NCBI GenBank assembly: GCA_946699065.1
Contig: CAMPDV010000064.1
Span: 372,001-436,000, forward strand
From: Loxodes magnus
Lineage: Eukaryota; Ciliophora; Karyorelictea; Loxodida; Loxodidae
Direction of reading: 5' to 3'
Length of the DNA stretch: 64,000 nucleotides
The notes below the pieces were generated by a model. The model made no database searches. It saw only the letters and a list, made by a program, of their open reading frames with translations, and was not told the DNA's origin. The translations under genes and the position numbers were made by a program. Below, one piece after another: positions 8,398 to 52,630 of the stretch (its first letter is position 1; every line of letters begins with the position of its first letter).

Positions 8398-8398
8398 G

Positions 8399-8480
8399 CG
8401 ACACCTGTGAGGTTTGAACTCACGCGGGAAATTCCCAATGGCTTAGCAGGCCATCGCCTTAACCACTCGGCCAAAGTGTC
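8399..8480 (-). tRNA. tRNA-Ser (GCU anticodon)
   Basis: 82-nt tRNA with a 7-bp acceptor (GACACTT / AGGTGTC), D-arm TGGCCGAGTGGTTAAGG, anticodon loop CTGCTAA giving GCU, an extra arm typical of class II tRNAs, and T-arm GAGTTCAAACCTC. Discriminator G. No intron. A Pol III-type T run follows on the minus strand. Identical to the copy at 13818-13899. Confidence 0.95.
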
Positions 8481-13817: not shown

Positions 13818-13899
13818 GACACTTTGGCCGAGTGGTTAAGGCGATGGCCTGCTAAGCCATTGGGAATTTCCCGCGTGAGTTCAAACCTCACAGGTGTCG
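13818..13899 (+). tRNA. tRNA-Ser (GCU anticodon)
   Basis: Identical in all 82 nt to the minus-strand gene at 8399-8480, with the same acceptor pairing, GCU anticodon, class II extra arm and discriminator G. It sits 747 bp beyond the start of the kelch gene 12061-13071, divergently oriented. Confidence 0.95.
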
Positions 13900-13900
13900 C

Positions 13901-38600: not shown

Positions 38601-40816
38601 TCAAGCAACGTATTTGAATAGACTTTTATCGTTCTCATCTCTTTCTAGAAAGTCTCGCTCAATAAGCTACTCTATTTTTTATTTAATTACTTTAGCTTCT
38701 GGCTTAAACAGATTTAAATTCTCTAATACCTCAGTTATAATATCGTTCAATTTAAGTTACTTTCTAGTCTTCATTATTCTCACTATCTAAGCTTCGATTG
38801 CTATTGATCTGTCTTCCGAAATTCTCTCTGAATTAATATTTTACCTTTTTTCACTATTTCGTCCGTTTAGGGTACAGGGATAACAATCTTTAAGTACTTA
38901 CTTTTGAATTCTGCGTTTACAGTAAAAACATCTTCTAACTGGATCTTGTCTTAAAGTGGGCTAGAAGTGTTTTTCCTTAGCAGTAATTTGTATTTTAGGA
39001 TTGTTAAACTATTGAGGTATTTAGTTAGAATGTCTTCTTCTATCTACATATGCTCTAATAGCTCTTAGTAGGTTCATTCTTACTTATTGTTGTAAAGCAG
39101 AAGGATCAATGCTTGGTAAGTCGAAAGCTATAAGTCGTAACTTCTCTCCTAGAAATGGCTCTTAAGGATTACACTACCTAGAGCATAATTTCAGTTAAGT
39201 ACTCGATGCTTATTGTTTTGGTTACTTTGTACGTAGAAGTTTCGAAAAGCTTCTTGACATGTTTAGAAGGATGTGGGTAAAGGCACAGAAGGGTTCTTGT
39301 ATGTAGGCCAGAATCCTGTAGTCAAAACTATTACAGAAAAATCACAAGGCAAGTTTAATTGTTAGTTCTTCTTATAGGAACTGAAATTGTTCTAGATCTC
39401 TTTCGCTAAGTTCAAATCAACTATCATACCTTCTAGTCTCTATGTAAAAGGAGCGCCACATCGAAGTTTTAGCTTGCTTATAAAGAATTTTTCCAGTTCT
39501 AAGTTTGCTGAAGATTCACTTAGTAACCTTTTAGCTAAATATCGTCTATGAGCTTCTGAGAAAATATCCTTGTCTGATATATGCTAGAATAACTCGTCTA
39601 CCTTTGAAAGTTACTCTTCTGCTTGCTCTTCTGATTAAAAGCCAAATTGATTTCCTTTTTTAAGTATTATGTTACAGTACTGAGCTAGTTATTCTGCGAA
39701 AGAAGTGCCTTACAAGTTTTAATTAAGAAACTGCTCAAAGGCTTCTCTTAAGGCTGTTTAGAAAATGAAGTCATCTTTGCAACATTCTCTTATCAAGTTC
39801 TTGAACTTTTCCTATAGTTTGATTAGGCTTTCTATCCATGAAGGATCAAATTTTTACTTGAATTTTAGCATTAATTATAACCCTTCATCCTATACATACT
39901 ATCTAAAGCTGACTGAAAAAGGCTTTAATCCATTAGGAATCTACTTAAATAGGTTATGCGCTCTCTTTAGATCTTCGTATTTCTCGTTTTAAATAAGGAA
40001 TGCTATTGCTGTTTGCTTTTCGAATAGTTCAGCCGAGGGCTCCTCCAATAGCAATTTAAGCATTATATTGATAAGAGGTTCTTCAGTCTGCGAGTGTAGA
40101 CATATGTTAACTATGTTTATTTCGTTATTCAAGCACCCTTCAGTCATCTTTAGGTAATCTGTGAATGAATTTGTTATTTCTTCTTGTTGTCTTTTTTTGA
40201 AGTATCTAGAAGCTTCATCCAAAAGCTATTTCTCAAATTGCTGCTTGTAGAATACATACTTCTACTCATCAAGAGAAACCATCATCTGCACATTTTACCT
40301 AACGATTTACTAGTCAGCAATATCCTTTCTCCTCATTTTTCCAATCTCATCTAAAATAGCCCTAACAAGCTTTCTCTCGATCCTATTGAAAATGTTATTC
40401 TAGTAAACACTAAAAGCACACTCTTTAAGACTAAGCTAGTTCTAATGCTTTACGAAAAATCGGTCTAAGTACTGAAAGAAGTTCCTCATTCATTTAAAAA
40501 GAATGTTATGGTTCTCCCAGCACTTCTAAACTTACATCATCAAACTAACTCCTTACTTCTACTAAAGCTACTTTACAACAGTCTAATCATAATAATCCTT
40601 AAAGGTTTAGCTGAACCTATCGTATAGTTATTAAGAGAAGTTATATGGCTATTTAGCGCTTGACATATTGTAGACAAGAGTATAAAAATCTGAATACTTT
40701 TTCGTTTTAAACCCTTAGAAGTTTCCAGTCTCTAGAAACTCTAGAATCTTAGAAATTCCTTAATCCCATAGCAGAGCCCATCCTTCTTCTAGTTCAATAT
40801 GCTTTTCTTAGTTCAT
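38601..40816 (-). CDS. Cullin (CUL1/CUL3-like), ubiquitin-ligase scaffold
   Basis: 732 aa after removal of a 17-nt intron at 38828-38844. The N-terminal helical repeats (YSDFYTLVYNM, SQQLYDRFSQTFKDYY) bind the adaptor in known cullins. The cullin-homology domain follows (DIFSEAHRRYLAKRLLSE, LEGMIVDLNLAKE, VIVLTTGFWPTY, ALGSVILKSHF, LSTYQALILLLYNNKQEW, KSKYLKIVIPVPQ), and the C-terminal winged helix carries the neddylation Lys in IVRIMKTRK (Lys ~677) and ends FKYVA. In life it would scaffold a RING-type E3 ligase in cytosol or nucleus. Length fits the family. ATG 40814-40816 heads a normal N-terminus. Several Trp are TGA (LFK-W-MRN, VLN-W-NYA, QE-W-TYQ). Subtype is not certain. Confidence 0.95.
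38828..38844 (-). other. 17-nt spliceosomal intron in the cullin gene
   Basis: GTAAAATATTAATTCAG splits a codon after its first base. Without it the frame is lost in a conserved stretch; with it removed the protein reads DEIVKKERISEDRSIAIEA, exactly the expected cullin sequence. Confidence 0.9.
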
Positions 40817-43093: not shown

Positions 43094-46000
43094 TCATTTA
43101 CGAGTAACACTTTATTGAATTTTTTCATCGATATTATCCTTAATTTCGATTTTGATTCTTTCCAAAGTAGACTTTCTTGGCTAAACTAGTTCTTTAGTAA
43201 ACAACTCATCTTCATTTCATTCTTATCTTTCTTTCAACTGTTTTTAAAGATCTAATCTACTATGCTTCGCTTCTTCCTATGACTGATTTAAATTTTCATA
43301 TATTAAGCTTTCTACCGTAGTAGATTTGATAGACTGCTACTATTTTAGTTTTTCCTTTTAAACTTGTACTACTAGATTCCTTTGAAACTGTCTAACTGGT
43401 TAATATTTATACCTTTTAGAACCTGAATGTTTTTTTTATTTAGGGCTAATCTATCCTGATATATTAAGATTCCTAAATTCTTCCTTTTATTTTTCGTTTA
43501 GAGAAACCTCACTAATCCTTTCAGACTCCTCATTTATACAATCTAATTATTTTTTATTCATTTGCATCAAAAATTTGTTATGCTCATAAACGTTCTTTTG
43601 AGCATGCTAAATTGCTTTCCTAGACTTCCTTTTTTATATGATTTTTCTCATTGCTCTTTTCCTAAATCTTTGAACTAATCTACTTACTGCGATTGCATGT
43701 GCTGATGTATACATCGGTTGGTCTTTCTTAAGGATTGGAAACTTCAAATAAACTTTTTTCTGGATTTTAGCGAAGACATCATGGTTGTCTTTCTCTAGCT
43801 AAGCTTAATAGATACTCACCTAAGTCTCTTTGACTTTAGATTTATATTTATCTATAAATCGCTTCATTCCTAGTGCTTGAGCTACCTCAAAGTAATGCAC
43901 TTTGACAAATTCATGGAGCGGCAAATCGAGTCTTTGCAACATAAGCTCTTTATCATTTTTTAGCATTCCTTTCTTAAATCCAAGAGGCTCACCTAGCTTT
44001 GCTAGCAGCCCATGCAGTTTATTATTGTTGATAAACCCTGTAGCTTGAGGGTCTAGTTCTGACCATTTTAGCCTGAAGTTTTCGAAATCTTGCTCCTTAA
44101 CAGTTAGTTACTCTTTACTATTTGCATCTCTGAATCCTTTCAAAATAATAGCTATAAATAGGTTCAAAAACACGAAGGAAACAATTATTTCGAAGCTGAT
44201 AAAGTAAGCATAACCTATATTTGAACCACATCCATTTGGATCTCCATCGTTATCCTGTATTTATTCATAGTCTGGATCGTAAATGCATCTGAACTGAACG
44301 CTGTTGTGAATCGTGCACGATAACATTAGAGAGTTTCAAGCTTCACCTGTACTTGACCTGATTAACAATAAAAAGGCAGAGAAAAAGGATTAAAAATTAG
44401 CATGCTCATCCAGTTCTCCGTTTATCCTGATCTTAGCAAAGAGTTGCATTCCTAGCACAGCGTAGATAAAAAGGAAAATCATGAGTAAGGCACCAATGTT
44501 TGCGAGATTAGGCAGAGTCAATATGAAGGTATTGAAAATCATTCTCAAAGACTTAGCTCGCTTGACTAGTCTAAATATCCTTCCAATTCTAAAAGTTCTG
44601 GCTAAGGTAGTAACCGCTACAATGCTCACATTAGAAAATTAACTCATAAATATCCCCATATTCGCTCCAAATACAATAAGAAAGTCAAAGACATTTCATT
44701 TGTTATAGAAGTAAAATTTCCCAAACCCAATTATCTTTAGAACAGCTTCAAGGGAAAATATCAAAGTGAAGATAAAATTTACAAACTCCAGCTAGTTTTA
44801 AACCTGTTAGCTTTACCCATATCATCTAAGAGCTAAGGCAAGCGTATTCAATATAATACAGAACATTATTACATAATCAAATTACTAGGTTTAGCACAAA
44901 TCATGGATTAGACCTCGAAGCTTGTTCTTGGATCTAAGGATATATTTCTTAGGTGGAAAGTTAAGCATCATTAGCTTGATATTAGCCCATTCAATTTATT
45001 AGGCTGATATAAAAGCCTTTCCATCTAAAATTCTCTCCTCCTTATTGTAAGTATCTATGACAACACCCACAAACAAGTTTAGGATGAAGAAATTACCCAC
45101 AATGATGAAAAAAACGAAAAACAGACTTCAAAATGGTTCGTGATTTTTTATAGGCTACTTATCTATACCAGCAGCATCTATACTTGAGAACATAATATTC
45201 ACCCATCCTTCGTTAGTTATCATAACAAATAGTGTAATCATAGCGTTAGGAACACTGTCAAAATTCAGTTCATTATTTACTCAATCTCCTCCTACATTCA
45301 TGCAATCTCATTTATCCTCAACATCCTATTATAAATAAACGGGTACGATATCCATCAAGCAATAGTAGAACTAACCTTTGAAATAGTTGACTCCAAATAT
45401 ACCAAACAGAATAAAAAACAGTAGACTGATGATCATGACATTAAAAATGCTAGGCAACGCTGAAATTAAAGCTCCAACAGCAAGCTTTAATCCTTCATTC
45501 CTGCTAATAACTCTAAGAGGCCTTAAAACTCTTAAAGTTCTAAGTGTTTTCAAGCTCCTTAAGTTTTAGCCATTTCCAAATGAGGACAGGATTATATCTA
45601 TTATTGAAACTATAATAATAGAGAAATCTATGAAGTTCCACCAGTCCTTGATATAAGATCGACTTCCATTGAAAAGAAACCCATAAGTAACAACTTTAAT
45701 GAAGCACTCGAGTATAAATATAGCAGTAGTGAACATATCTAGTACTTATAGGATTTTACTTAGTTCTCCATTAGGATCGTTAAGCGGGTTATCTAAAACG
45801 AGCAATATGCTTGATGATATTATACTTAGCATTATGATACCTTCAAAGTACTAACTAACAGCTAATTCATACAAAATCTTTCTCGTTGGATTGCTTGTGT
45901 TAAACATAAACAGAGACCTTCCTTCCAATCTATAAATTCCACTTTTAGTTTTTGTTTCCGTACTTTTGCTTTATTTTGGTGGTAATGGACTCCTAGTAGG

Positions 46001-48844
46001 AGAGAGTTGGTTTTAATTTAAGGATTTCTCAACAATAGCTTATTCTATTTCCTTTCTATATTATTTGTCTTATTATAATTACAGCTCTTTCTAAACCTCT
46101 GCTTTTTTGATCTAGTCTAGCTATATGCTTGGCGTGTCTCTTACTGACAATCTTTTTTATATAAAGTTGAGCATTGAACCTGCAAACTACTTCACCTTAT
46201 CTTTTGCTTTATAAAGAGCTGAATTTCTCCTTAATTCTTATAGTTATTATTCATCCAAAATTTGGTTTTAATCTGTGGAGAAGTTTCCGAGTAAGATAGC
46301 AAGGAACAAGTTAAGCAGGATAAACTTGCCTATGGAAACTAGAGAGATGAAGAAAATAAGCGAGACTACTAAGTTGGTAGCACGTACCGCATTGTACAGT
46401 ATTAGGTTCCAAGACTCTCCAGTGAATATAATGAAAATAGCAATGAAGGCATTTAAAAAGGTATCGAAGTTAATTCTAGGACTTTCTCCATTTTCTAAGT
46501 CAACCTAAGAATTCTGATCGAACTTCAAGTTATAAGCGAAGAATTCCATTCCAACTAAAGTATAAACAAACATTATAATAACAAGAAGCACACTAAAGTT
46601 CCTGATATCTTGTAGCGTCTTACTGATTGTTTAGAGCAGGTTTTTCAAACTTGTTCAGCTCCTTGCAAGTTTAAATATTCTGAGTATTCTAAACGAACGA
46701 AAAGCGCTTATAGCACCACCAGTAGAATGTGATCCTCCTACTCTTGGTATTATAATTTCGATTATCGAGACCATCACAATAAATCCTTCAAACAGATTAA
46801 ATCGATCTCTTGCATAACCCTTAAACCCTAAGCCTAATATCTTAATAATCATCTCTATGGCGAAAATACCAGTACAAATTAAATTCGATATGCTTAGTAC
46901 ATACTCCCACTAGTTATCCATAGGATAATGCTCCATAGCTAGTAGAGTTGTATTAGCTAAAATTAGAAAAGTAATAAGCAGAAGGAATTTATTAGAGCAC
47001 ACTACTTTATAGAAGAACAAAAAGATTATGTTTCCTTCAGCTCTGCATATAACATTATCTTTCATTTATTTCCCAGATATAATTTTATTAAGCTTCATTT
47101 CATTATCTTGCTGAACTTCTATCGAAAATGAGGATTATGAGGAAGAATAATAACTTTCTTAATCAGAATCGCTAACCTGATCTTAATTTTATTCGCTTTG
47201 ATTATCTTTTTGTTGATTATCTTGTTGTTAAAGTTCTTAGTCGGACAATATTTTATTATCCTCAAACGCTATTTTTGGATCTTATAGAAATTTTTCTTGT
47301 TCCTCTATTTCTATTAAATTATCTTCAGCTTAAGACTTTTTCTAATCCTGATTATTTTCAAAAGGACGACCTGTTATTTCGGTATTACAAGCTTCCTTAT
47401 AATTTTCAGAGGATTTCACTTCTTAATGAATGCTTTACTAACTTTAAACTTAAAGTCCTCTATGTTCGAATGGAGTTTTTTCAATCTTTTGCTCATCTAA
47501 AGGCAGCACTTTCTTTTTTTTAATTCGATTCAAAATGCGAGAAATCATTTTACCAAACTTCGATTTTTTTTTCTTCGGCTTGTTAATTATCTGGCTTTAA
47601 CCTTACTATGTTCCCTTTTCATCTACCTTTGGCTTATTTTAAATACTGAATATGTTATTTGATTTATCACTCTTTCTACTATCATTAGGTATTTGACATT
47701 TTTCCCTTGATAGTATCATGCTTTAGCTATTCACATTAGAGGTTGAAAGTTTTATGTCAAAACACTTATTTCACTGCTTACTTAAAGACCTGTTTAACTT
47801 TCTTTAGGTCTAATCATCGTCTTTCTATGTTTACTTAAAAGTCTCTCAGATTACTGCAAGAGTTAGGTTTATCAGGAAGAAACTTCCTCATATTACCAGA
47901 AAGCAAAAAAATAGAGCAACTGGTACAGGAGAGACAGCGTCCATATACCTATAAGTGATATAAATTCAACCCTCTAGTGTTATACATTGAAAGATGCTTA
48001 GAATAGCTGACCCAATATTGTTAAAGTTTGGGATATCAAAATCAAGTTCAGCAATATCAGCTTCTGACTTAAAATGCTGAATATGAGTTAATCCATACTA
48101 TGAAGGATTTCCACATCATAAACCATCTGGACAGTTATATAAACCAGAACCTAAACTACACAGTCTTGTTATGGTATGATCAGCTTCTCATATTTTATTT
48201 CCCAAAGGTTCAGGAGTAAGTCTACATCTTTAGTATGTAAGTCCATCAAAAAATTAAAGTCCTCCTATGCCAAATAGCAGGAAGATAAAAAACAGAAACA
48301 GAACTACATTCGCCAGTGCTGGCAATGAGTTAAACAAACTAGTTACGAGAATTCTCATTCCTCTGACTGAAGAAATACTTCTCAGAGGTCTAATAACTCT
48401 TAACGTTCTCAAAGCAGTTAATTTAGGAACTTAAGGCATAAGTCCAACAAGTCCACTTAGCACAACAATAAAATCAAGTACATTCCAACCATCTCTCAGA
48501 TAAGTAAATTTTTCAAAAGCAAATCCCATTCCAATAATTTTGATCACAGCTTCAATAGTAAAACTAGAAGTAAAGAAGTTTTCAGAATAATTAACCAGAT
48601 TATTCCTCCAGTTATCATTCGCATCCTCACCTTAATGTTCTTGCTCTCTGTAACTGTAATCCTAAAGAGCAAGGATAACTGAATTAGCAAGAATAATAAA
48701 AATGATAAACCTTTCAAATCATACTCATTCATGAAGTCAGACGAAGATGATTCTAAAGCTATGTGAGGGTTTAAGAAAAAACAAGGACTTATCACAAAAC
48801 CGTCTACTCTTACCATGAACAAAGAAATTATATTAATTATCCAT
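43094..48844 (-). CDS. Four-domain voltage-gated Ca2+ channel alpha1 subunit
   Basis: 1916 aa in one frame with no intron, start ATG 48842-48844. Four homologous six-helix domains; S4 sensors are [11 protein letters not shown] (I), [14 protein letters not shown] (II), [13 protein letters not shown] (III) and [17 protein letters not shown] (IV). The pore-loop filters are TLEGW (Trp 293), TGESW (812), TNEGW (1214) and TGEAW (1503), giving EEEE, the Ca2+-selective signature. The filter Trp of domains I and IV is encoded by TGA (47966-47968; 44336-44338), strong proof of UGA = Trp. The tail has an EF-hand-like stretch and an IQ-like segment [16 protein letters not shown], where calmodulin binds in Cav channels. 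In ciliates such channels sit in the ciliary membrane and drive ciliary reversal; that role is inferred. About 15 Trp codons are TGA. Confidence 0.97.
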
Positions 48845-48901
48845 TTTTGGGTTTCAAGTATAGGATTTGAACCCCTAAATGTTATTCATTTAACACAAAA
48901 G
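48845..48901. promoter_or_regulatory. 57-bp divergent intergenic region between Ca2+ channel and COA1-like gene
   Basis: The two ATG codons point away from each other with only 57 bp between. Both promoters and both 5' leaders must fit here or overlap the coding sequences. No TATA-like or initiator motif stands out. Confidence 0.6.
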
Positions 48902-49840
48902 ATGCTAAAAATTTTATCAGGCACTGCTTTGCTCAGCTCTTTATTCGTGGGGGTGTAGCATTTCATTGCAATAAGGTCTTGGAAGAAAAGACATCCTGTA
49001 CTATAGGAAGCTATGAAGTTTATTAATCAAGATGATTAAGTTGGGGAGTTAATGAGGAACCCTATCAAGATTATTGGTGGCGTTTAGGGTGCTTTCAAAC
49101 CTGCAGATCGTAATATTTCCGTGACTTTCAATGTTAACGATTAATCGTTAAGAATTGCCCAAGTCCATGTAAAAGCAAGTTTGTCACCGAAGGGAGTAAT
49201 TAAAAGTCCAAGGTTGCCTAAATCCTACATTTTGGACGCTTTGGGATAATAGAGTCAGTAGTTGAGTTTAGAGGATAAATGAGAGATAACAGAGCTAACA
49301 TTCAAGTTTCTTAACAAGCAGATAGTGCTGATCTCTCCTTCAATTAGCAAAAGCCATATGGATTATATACAAGAGCTGGAGCTATAAAAGTATACACTTA
49401 AGGCTGTATAAAAGGAATGGAAAACCTTCCAAGATGATAAGTTATACGTGATGGGAAACTTAATAACTTCCCCTACAACAGTCGTGATATTTGAGGATTT
49501 TACGAACGCGTATTTCAAGTTATGCTTGAGTTTTATAAGTCTAGGAGTAATTTACATAGTTGCAAAACGATACGTTGAAAAAGAAAGGTATTCTGGTACT
49601 TTCCAAGAAATTATATATAATATCGCTAAGAAGAGAGTTGGGCTAGATGTGACGAAATAGTTAATTACTCCCTTTAAAATGTAAGCACCTGACGTTAAAA
49701 AAAAGATGGTAATGCAACTGAACAAGACAAATGTTATGAATTTCAAAAGCGCACCTCCACATGGCAGGCTTATAGCAGTAGGAAGTTATTGGGTAGCAAA
49801 ATATGCGGCAGTTTCTTATGGAATATAGTCAGGGATTTGA
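48902..49840 (+). CDS. COA1/TIM21-like mitochondrial inner-membrane protein
   Basis: 312 aa. The N-terminus MLKILSGTALLSSLFVGVQHF is a membrane helix, followed by HPVLQEAMKFINQDDQVGEL, NPIKIIGGVQGAF and a beta-rich part with VTFNVNDQ, IAQVHVKAS and KWEITELTFKFLNKQIVLI. This is the layout of the COA1/TIM21 fold: one anchor, a helix with a conserved Pro-Ile-turn, then paired sheets. In other organisms these proteins assist cytochrome oxidase assembly or link TIM23 to respiratory complexes. Beyond the usual family length there is a second hydrophobic stretch (LCLSFISLGVIYIVAKRYV) and a conserved-looking basic tail. One Trp is TGA (EDK-W-EIT). Assignment is by pattern, not by search. Confidence 0.6.
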
Positions 49841-51187
49841 TCATCTAATAAACTCCTACATTAATAACTTTTCCATTGAATCGATTTAACTAATTTTAAG
49901 AATCTTAAAATTAGAGTCACTAAGAGCGAGTACTTTAATACACAATTTTGTATAAAATTTAATTTAAAAGATTAAATCTAAAGGATAGACACTACTAGGA
50001 GTTCAGTACTTGGATATTGGAGGACGAATGGTTAATCTTAGTAAGAAAGAAGGAACTAAAGAAGGTAAACTACAAGATCAGATATTGGCATTCAAATGTT
50101 TATGTGATAATAAAGTGCACAACTTTGTTATATGAAGTATCAAGTGATCAAATGTACCTTAAACAGACTTTCTTAGGAATGGAAGATTAATTTACATAAA
50201 TAGCTATTTATTGATTTTTAAATAAGCTAGATTTATACTAAGCCTTCATGCTATATTAAACAGTTACTGAATGTTGGTCTATGTATATATTCAAAATTCT
50301 TAAATTCAGACAAAAGAGTAGTGGCTAGAAGTAACTACTTGAAGATATGAAGAGTAGATTATTTATGTTAGTTAAGCAAAAGATATGGCTAATATTTCAA
50401 GAGTTAGTTTATAAGAAGAATGACAAAATGATCGTAACTCTATGTATATGGAAATATGTCACTTTAATATAAGTCTAAGTATGTGAAATTAGTTGCTCTG
50501 TATTAATAACCACTGACAACAAAATGATATCTAGAAGTAACTTCTTTGGTATATTTACTTATTTACTAGGCATATTATTAAATGCATTTTGATAGCCAGA
50601 TTTATTAAAGATGAATATTAAGAATACCTTACTATTCTCATATCAATCTAGACTAAATAGATCAAGTGAGCTGTAATGTTATATAAATATACTTCATTTA
50701 CTACCAGCTTTAGTCAGCTTATTGCTAGCAACTCTTAGATCGATTCTTCTAGTTCTAATTTAAACTGCTTACCTAAAACTAGCCAACCAGTTATTCATTA
50801 TTTAAACCTCCCATTTTCTCCATTTTTACTTAACTAGCAAATATTGATATAGAGAAAGGCATATTTACGTATAATGCCTTCTTCTTATCTTAGAGATAAG
50901 GAAAGTTAATTGGCTAATAAGCCATAAAACTTCCTAGTACTCCATTACCTTTAACACTCCATTAACACTCTTCTTTTCTTACTACCCTCCATCAATCAGC
51001 TTTATCCTCATCAACGTGAATCCATTTTCTTCATTCCTCAAGCATAGTTAGTACATTTAGCCATTCTTAACTAGCCCTCTAATTAAGTAAACTTGGTTAG
51101 TCAAGTCCTAAGAGAGTGTGATAATACTAGGTTTGATTATATTTCAATATAGTATAATTTAAGCATTTTTAAACTCAATTTAATAAA
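49841..51187. other. Intergenic stretch with a possible decayed coding region near 49990-50560
   Basis: The plus-strand frame from ~49986 starts protein-like (LGVQYLDIGGRMVNLSKKEG) but then gathers TGA codons at random density. No gene is claimed; it could be a relic. Confidence 0.4.
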
Positions 51188-52630
51188 ATGCTGTTGAGAT
51201 CAGTGGCAAGGTTCTTTGCTAATAAATTGCAGACTAGTAGTAAGTAAGCTGTCAGCAAAATCTAGGACGGAGCACGTATTTCTGTCGGAGGATATGGTGC
51301 TTGTGGTGTTCCAGAAAACTTGCTGAAAGCTTTAGTTGAGTAAGGAACCAAAAACCTTACTGTTTATTCAATTACAGCTGGTCTCGAAGGAAATGGAATT
51401 GGTAACTTGATTAAAAATGGATAAGTGAAGAGACTTGTGACTAGTGATGTTAGTTGCAACGAAGAAGTTGAGAAACTGTGGAAAAAAGGAAAATTAGAAT
51501 TGGAATTGATTCCTCAGGGATTAATGATGAGCAAGTTTAGAGGAGGTGGCGCAGGAATACCAGGATTTTTCACTAAAGCAGGAGTAGGAACTTATTATCA
51601 CTTCGGTGGTTTAACAATTAAATATGATAATGATGGCAAATCTGAAATTCTATCACCACCAAAGGAATCCAGAAAGTTCGGGGATCAACTTTATCTATAA
51701 TTGCAATCAGTCTACATGGATTTCGCTCTTATCAAAGCACAAAAAGCAGACAATCTAGGAAATTGTGTCTATAGACATACTGCAATGAATAACAATCCAG
51801 ACTTAGCTACAGCATCAGAATGGACTATATGCGAAGCCGAAGAAATAGTGAAAGCAGGTGAATTAGAACCTGAAAAGGTTGGAACTTAAGCAATTTATGT
51901 TCACTCAGTTGTAAAGGGAGAAACTAGCTCTAAGCAGATGTAGAAAGACATTATTTCAAAGGCTGACTTCATCAAATAAGACCATTTATAAAGAAGCTCT
52001 AAAATAGTTAAAAGAGCTACTGAGGAACTGAAAGACGGAATGGTGGTTTCCTTAGGAATGGGTATTCCAAGTCTTGTTCCTGAATTCACAAATAAAGCGA
52101 TTGTATTCACAACTACGACTGGAGTTTTAGGAGCTGGACATTTTCCTGAGAAAAACTAAGAAGATCCTGACATTATAGGTGCAACTTTTGAGCCAATCAC
52201 TTTAACAAAAGGATCAGCTATTGTAAGCTAAGCACAGGCATTTGATATTTTAAGAGGAGGACACACAGACGTTGTAATTTTAGGAGCTTTGCAAGTTTCA
52301 GTTGAGGGAGATATAGCAAATTGGTACTCTCCAGGAGAAAAACTTTACGGTTTCCAAAGCAACCTCGATTTAGTTAACGCAGCAGGTAAAAAGATAGTAG
52401 TAATGCACCATGTAAACAGCAAAGGTCAACCTAAAATAGTAGACTTTTTAACTTACTACAAGTCAGCAAGCAAATGTGTAGACATGATAATAACTGATTT
52501 GGGAGTTTTTAAATTCATTAACTAGGAGTTGATCTTAACCGAGATCTTTGAAGGTGTTACAATTGAATAGATTAAAAAATGTACCACAGCTCCTTTCAAG
52601 GTTTCAACAGGCGTTCAAATAATAAGATGA
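51188..52630 (+). CDS. SCOT-like CoA transferase without the catalytic Glu (probable pseudoenzyme)
   Basis: 480 aa homologous along its length to mitochondrial succinyl-CoA:3-ketoacid CoA-transferase: N-terminal subdomain ARISVGGYGACGVPENL, PQGLMMSKFRGGGAGIPGFFT and ECAEEIV-like CEAEEIVKAGE; C-terminal subdomain MVVSLGMGIPSLV, RGGHTDVVILGALQVS, GDIANW. The start MLLRSVARFFANKLQ is a good mitochondrial presequence. Where SCOT has SENGVLG, with the Glu that carries CoA, this protein has TTTGVLG (Thr 310, codon ACG 52115-52117). The later GGAMDLV is SNLDLV, losing the Gly pair. Classical CoA transfer is therefore unlikely; a regulatory or different role is inferred. Intronless; seven or more in-frame TAA/TAG Gln, stop TGA. 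Confidence 0.92.

Follow-up and report, generated by a model that had tools for sequence, protein, structure and literature searches.

A gene of the ciliate Loxodes magnus, whose genus lives at low oxygen, encodes a homologue of SCOT with threonine at the position of the catalytic glutamate, the one residue by which the textbook class I CoA-transferases are defined. The Gly-Gly loop of the GGAMD motif is replaced as well, and both changes recur in a second copy of the gene elsewhere in the genome. With a probability of roughly 70%, we read the protein as a SCOT paralogue that gave up CoA transfer through a glutamyl anhydride and was neofunctionalised, a form known here from this genome only. 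That a eukaryotic form lacking the glutamate has been duplicated and tightly conserved shows that the class I fold can be put to new use, and two Glu-bearing paralogues in the same genome provide natural controls.

The gene lies in a stretch of 64,000 nucleotides (C64:372001-436000), referred to here as the window. The genome searched comprises 705,730,643 bases in 7,843 contigs; the macronuclear assembly of L. magnus is reported as 706 Mbp, with genetic code table 27, where the sole stop codon, UGA, is also read as tryptophan (PMC11441545).

The gene, its paralogues and their duplication

Translated with table 6, in which TAA and TAG specify glutamine, the frame runs uninterrupted over 480 codons, 13 of which are TAA or TAG, and ends in TGA, in agreement with a preliminary description that had called the gene intact. 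Coordinates are collected in Table 1.

Table 1. Features of the window that bear on the Glu-less SCOT paralogue
Feature	Position	Strand	Basis
Glu-less SCOT paralogue, 480 aa	51188..52630	+	open frame; PF01144 in two stretches; TGA stop at 52628-52630
N-terminal residues 1-13, basic and amphipathic, perhaps a short mitochondrial presequence	51188..51226	+	predicted targeting
Ile62-Thr63 for pig Asn51-Asn52 (SNNAG); V-T in C29; S-N in Glu-bearing C37	51371..51376	+	alignments
Asp87-Val-Ser89-Cys90 for Tyr-Val-Gly-Glu (SYVGEN); C29 identical	51446..51457	+	alignments
TTTTG (residues 308-312) for QSENG, Thr310 at the catalytic Glu; C29 VTTTG	52109..52123	+	alignments
FQSNLD (residues 389-394) for MGGAMD/PGGAMD; C29 FQNNLD	52352..52369	+	alignments
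Block shared, in order, with the region upstream of C29 (L092), about 71% DNA identity	43629..49841		DNA alignment

Residues 13-474 were matched by phmmer to human SCOT (3dlx, E 2.1e-108), and pig SCOT (1m3e) was matched also. The protein shows the fused architecture of two CoA_trans domains and aligns to SCOT over its full length. The NCBIfam model of the A subunit (TIGR02429) gave 177.2 bits, above its cut-off of 128.5, and that of the B subunit (TIGR02428) fell short of its cut-off of 243.55 with 201.4 bits. Identity to the other aligned SCOTs is 38-45%, and the best segments against bacterial loci (the best 80 of 592) are 34-41% identical. Judged by its sequence, the protein is a strongly diverged SCOT homologue.

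The first 20 residues include no acidic one and carry a net charge of +4. The highest helical moment of an 11-residue stretch within them is greater than that of every such stretch from residue 31 onward. The N-termini of all four paralogues are similarly basic and amphipathic. The mitochondrial presequence proposed in the preliminary description fits a terminus of this kind, although a fit is no proof, and a mitochondrial location is suggested.

A search of the genome with PF01144 gave eight matches, which are the two halves of four genes, and a protein search returned the same four. The preliminary description had raised the question of a second SCOT gene with an intact SENG motif, and such a gene was found. 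It is C31, which has QSENG and GGAMD, is 45% identical to the window protein and is the closest to it by identity among the Glu-bearing paralogues. C37, 39% identical, has GGAMD and carries its glutamate in the form HGENG. The fourth gene, C29, lies on a different contig and lacks the glutamate; its identity to the window protein is 81%. Glu-less SCOT is itself represented here by a pair of paralogues.

Since the DNA upstream of the two Glu-less genes matches in order, a block duplication gave rise to them. The matching parts lie in the window at 43629-47060 and 47814-49841 and contain a calcium-channel-like gene on the minus strand (Ion_trans, GPHH) and an unnamed gene on the plus strand. This duplication of about 6 kb may be part of a larger old one. 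The 9.9 kb downstream of C29 showed no colinear match to the window, just a short match elsewhere in it. The channel in the duplicated block is a multi-domain protein resembling voltage-gated calcium channels.

Other features of the window may be recorded here. The frame at 48815-49837 (+) is continuous only when an in-frame TGA is read as tryptophan, in agreement with table 27, and has no Pfam match. Two tRNA-Ser (GCT) genes, at 8398-8480 (-) and 13818-13900 (+), stand in opposite orientation about 5 kb apart; open reading frames overlapping them have a peptide in common, which is probably merely translated tRNA sequence. A gene of the Cullin family occupies 39191-40489 (-) (Pfam Cullin, E 1.7e-104).

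Replacement and constraint in the active site

We take Glu305, Asn51-Asn52, Gln99 and Gly385-Gly386 to be active-site residues of pig SCOT. In the alignment with 1m3e, Glu305 falls on Thr310 (ACG, 52115-52117) and the span Gln303-Asn306 on Thr308-Thr311. The pig loop GMGGAMD reads GFQSNLD, with Gln390-Ser391 at Gly385-Gly386, and the NAGKET motif is likewise replaced. The GGxGxCGxPEN segment is retained, as is pig Gln99, in the form of Gln110. The loss of the CoA-carrying glutamate and the altered Gly-Gly-Ala-Met-Asp motif, both reported in the preliminary description, are borne out by these alignments and by the bacterial relatives. In 80 of 80 of the latter (the best 80 of 592) the Glu of SENG, the Gly-Gly of GGAMD, the Asn-Asn of SNNAG and YVGEN are all present; the set was found with alpha-domain motif patterns from all four paralogues, so it is biased toward near relatives and gives no measure of the rarity of Glu-less forms.

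The window protein and C29 have in common the new residues Asp87, Ser89, Cys90, Thr309-Thr311, His318, Phe334 and Asn392. Codons in the window gene and C29, respectively, are ACG and ACT for Thr310, ACA and ACC for Thr63, and CAA and TAA for Gln390.

The extent of the change was counted over 438 positions, those at which 60 or more bacterial sequences have a residue, others being dropped. Conservation among the best 80 of 592 bacterial relatives reaches 97.5% or more at 117 of these positions, of which 4 differ from the consensus in C31, 17 in C37, 49 in the window protein and 50 in C29. The description of the protein as well conserved therefore holds between the two altered copies, with their 81% identity, but not with respect to SCOT. 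At 47 of the 117 positions both Glu-less copies are changed, to the same residue in 40 cases, and at 34 of the 47 the consensus is kept by both C31 and C37. Some of the changes need not mean lost function, because the Glu-bearing genes have also left the consensus at some of these 47 positions (C37 at 11, C31 at 4); even the Asn pair is incomplete in C37, where it reads S-N.

With respect to C37 itself (L010:2399-3892, minus strand), the glutamate is present in the variant motif GENG; the gene also has the SNAG variant and an insert of four residues. Because it differs at 17 of the 117 conserved positions, its substrate may differ too, acetate:succinate transfer being one guess. Nothing on an acetate:succinate CoA-transferase in ciliate mitochondria was found in the literature searched.

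Between the window gene and C29, two paralogues within one genome, the Nei-Gojobori method over 479 codons gave dS 1.277, dN 0.122 and dN/dS 0.096 (0.063-0.133 in 500 bootstraps), with both domains alike; the ratio is approximate since dS is near saturation. The preliminary description had proposed dN/dS between related species; the value here compares paralogues of one species. To judge from these values the two genes diverged long ago (dS about 1.3) and are under purifying selection. Ratios for their neighbours were taken from ten ORF pieces chosen among the block matches, which are not full gene models. Eight pieces of the channel gave 0.090 with synonymous sites saturated (dS 2.7), and two pieces of the gene beside it gave 0.145 and 0.271, which puts the constraint on the SCOT pair at about the level of that on the adjacent genes.

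At the 47 changed sites pN/pS is 0.129, compared to 0.190 at the other 432, and the identity of 40 in 47 stands against 13% in a neutral simulation (plain Jukes-Cantor) at the same distance. By these comparisons constraint on the changed sites is no weaker than on the rest of the gene. Taken together, the counts indicate a pocket that was rebuilt and then held, an episode of extensive change having given way to constraint.

In a tree of 82 rows (the four paralogues, human SCOT and 77 bacterial sequences of at least 430 residues from the best 80 of 592), the two Glu-less sequences join in a single clade (100/100), and their tips measure 0.14 and 0.19. The branch leading to this pair is very long (2.67 + 0.92 about the midpoint root), and the pair does not stand beside C31, though C31 is nearest by identity. 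Both its placement and its branch length are unsure, because the program warned of long branches meeting there (C37 with the pair) and of an unusual composition of the pair.

Structure prediction with AF2 gave a pLDDT of 37.9 when only the four paralogues were supplied. With 16 sequences, including 12 of the 16 single-frame bacterial proteins, the model was moderate, with a mean pLDDT of 72.1, a pTM of 0.69 and pLDDT values below 50 at residues 312-318 and 380-392. Foldseek placed Trypanosoma brucei ASCT and human and pig SCOT at the top; over the 50 matches listed, TMq was 0.69-0.78 and rmsd 6.9-8.4 A. The predicted fold is that of SCOT. Given the low-confidence loops at the altered motifs, no claim is made for the geometry of the pocket.

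Possible functions of the Glu-less pair

We propose that a burst of changes preceded the duplication of the block. Both Glu-less copies have been kept under strong purifying selection, mostly with the same new residues. The window protein would reside in the mitochondrial matrix, keep the SCOT fold, still bind CoA or acyl-CoA in its rebuilt pocket and do something other than CoA transfer. Ordinary CoA transfer is very unlikely, because the glutamate and the Gly-Gly loop are both replaced. Conservation of the replacing residues makes it most likely that the pocket continues to bind a ligand. The proposed CoA binding rests on two kept motifs, the GGxGxCGxPEN segment and the counterpart of Gln99. 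The catalytic features by which SCOT is defined are absent, and annotation of the protein as an active SCOT should be avoided.

The preliminary description had gone further and suggested a pseudoenzyme with a new or regulatory role. A catalytic residue is indeed missing from an intact gene under purifying selection, and the glutamate mechanism cannot run. The protein need not have lost all catalysis. Many conserved residues besides the glutamate are replaced and the replacements are conserved in turn, a pattern that agrees no less well with a new ligand or a new chemistry than with a pseudoenzyme, whether inert or regulatory. Another reaction on acyl-CoA (hydrolysis or cleavage of a C-C bond, the kind of activity assigned to IpdAB) seems a little more likely than a purely regulatory or ligand-sensing role, given the tight conservation of the replaced residues and the precedent of IpdAB; sequence cannot choose between the two. 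More tentatively, the eukaryotic SCOT lineage might have evolved a new, non-transferase acyl-CoA enzyme by rebuilding of the pocket, involving Thr309-311, Asp87, Ser89, Cys90 and His318, independently of the bacterial IpdAB.

The regulatory alternative is the less probable one. SCOT is a dimer, and Glu-bearing genes remain in the genome, so the window protein might serve without chemistry of its own as a pseudo-subunit in a heterodimer with the canonical SCOT, C31, or as a sensor of CoA or acyl-CoA that tunes SCOT or ASCT. The predicted similarity at the level of the fold would agree with such a role. The pocket of a pure scaffold would be expected to drift, yet 40 of the 47 replaced sites have been held, and 45% identity to C31 is low for partners in a heterodimer. 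It is improbable that the protein is still a CoA-transferase, working through another nucleophile (e.g., Thr309-311 or Cys90) or by a non-covalent route. The polar residues newly common to both copies (Asp87, Ser89, Cys90, Thr309-311 and His318) could be read in its favor, but the Gly-Gly of GGAMD is gone too, with Q-S or Q-N in its place, and none of the 80 bacterial relatives (the best 80 of 592) has dispensed with either the glutamate or the glycines. In AarC, the E294A variant is described as inactive (PMC4876117).

There is very little to be said for a recent pseudogene or an error of assembly or reading. The frame of C29 does contain one TGA, at which the window gene has TGG for Trp212, and this is explained by table 27, in which karyorelicts read TGA as tryptophan besides stop (PMC11441545). 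The open frame of the window gene and the dN/dS of 0.096 exclude a recent pseudogene, and a read error at Thr310 is excluded by the same residue, differently encoded, on another contig. The neofunctionalised paralogue is the reading that we prefer.

Comparison with known CoA-transferases

With pig and human SCOT (1m3e, 3dlx) and trypanosome ASCT (6lp1) the window protein shares the fused alpha-beta order, PF01144 in two stretches and, by prediction, the overall fold, together with the GGxGxCGxPEN segment and the glutamine at pig Gln99. It differs from them in the catalytic glutamate, Asn51-Asn52, Gly385-Gly386, SYVGEN and NAGKET, all of which are replaced. The Gly-Gly of GGAMD is presumably the counterpart of the oxyanion-hole glycine of AarC. 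This succinyl-CoA:acetate CoA-transferase belongs, like the window protein, to the class I superfamily; class I transfer is described as passing through an acyl-glutamyl anhydride, with an oxyanion hole formed by the backbone, and AarC has Glu294, Asn347 and Gly388, the backbone amide of the last being used in the mechanism (PMC4876117).

No account of a Glu-less SCOT was found in the limited literature searched, which is no proof of absence. A scan of viral contigs with an alignment of the Glu-less pair yielded 69 pattern matches, none of them a relative. Among known proteins IpdAB also lacks the glutamate, but membership of its family by sequence was rejected, the best PDB matches being SCOTs. 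PDB 6co6, listed as a probable CoA-transferase alpha subunit and presumably IpdA, matched the window protein with E 1.9e-4, compared to 2.1e-108 for SCOT, and matched the canonical C37 better (8e-6).

IpdAB is a relative of the class I CoA-transferases to which hydrolysis of COCHEA-CoA in bacterial steroid breakdown is assigned; it has Gly57-beta in place of the catalytic glutamate, is reported to have transferred no CoA in trials on short acyl substrates and, unlike the window protein, is a two-subunit relative of glutaconate CoA-transferase (PMC5380842). A regulatory role would make the L. magnus protein a ciliate pseudoenzyme of ketone-body or acetate metabolism. Should it instead be an enzyme, CoA transfer would have been left behind a second time, independently of IpdAB, and its way of working may be closer to that of IpdAB than to that of SCOT.
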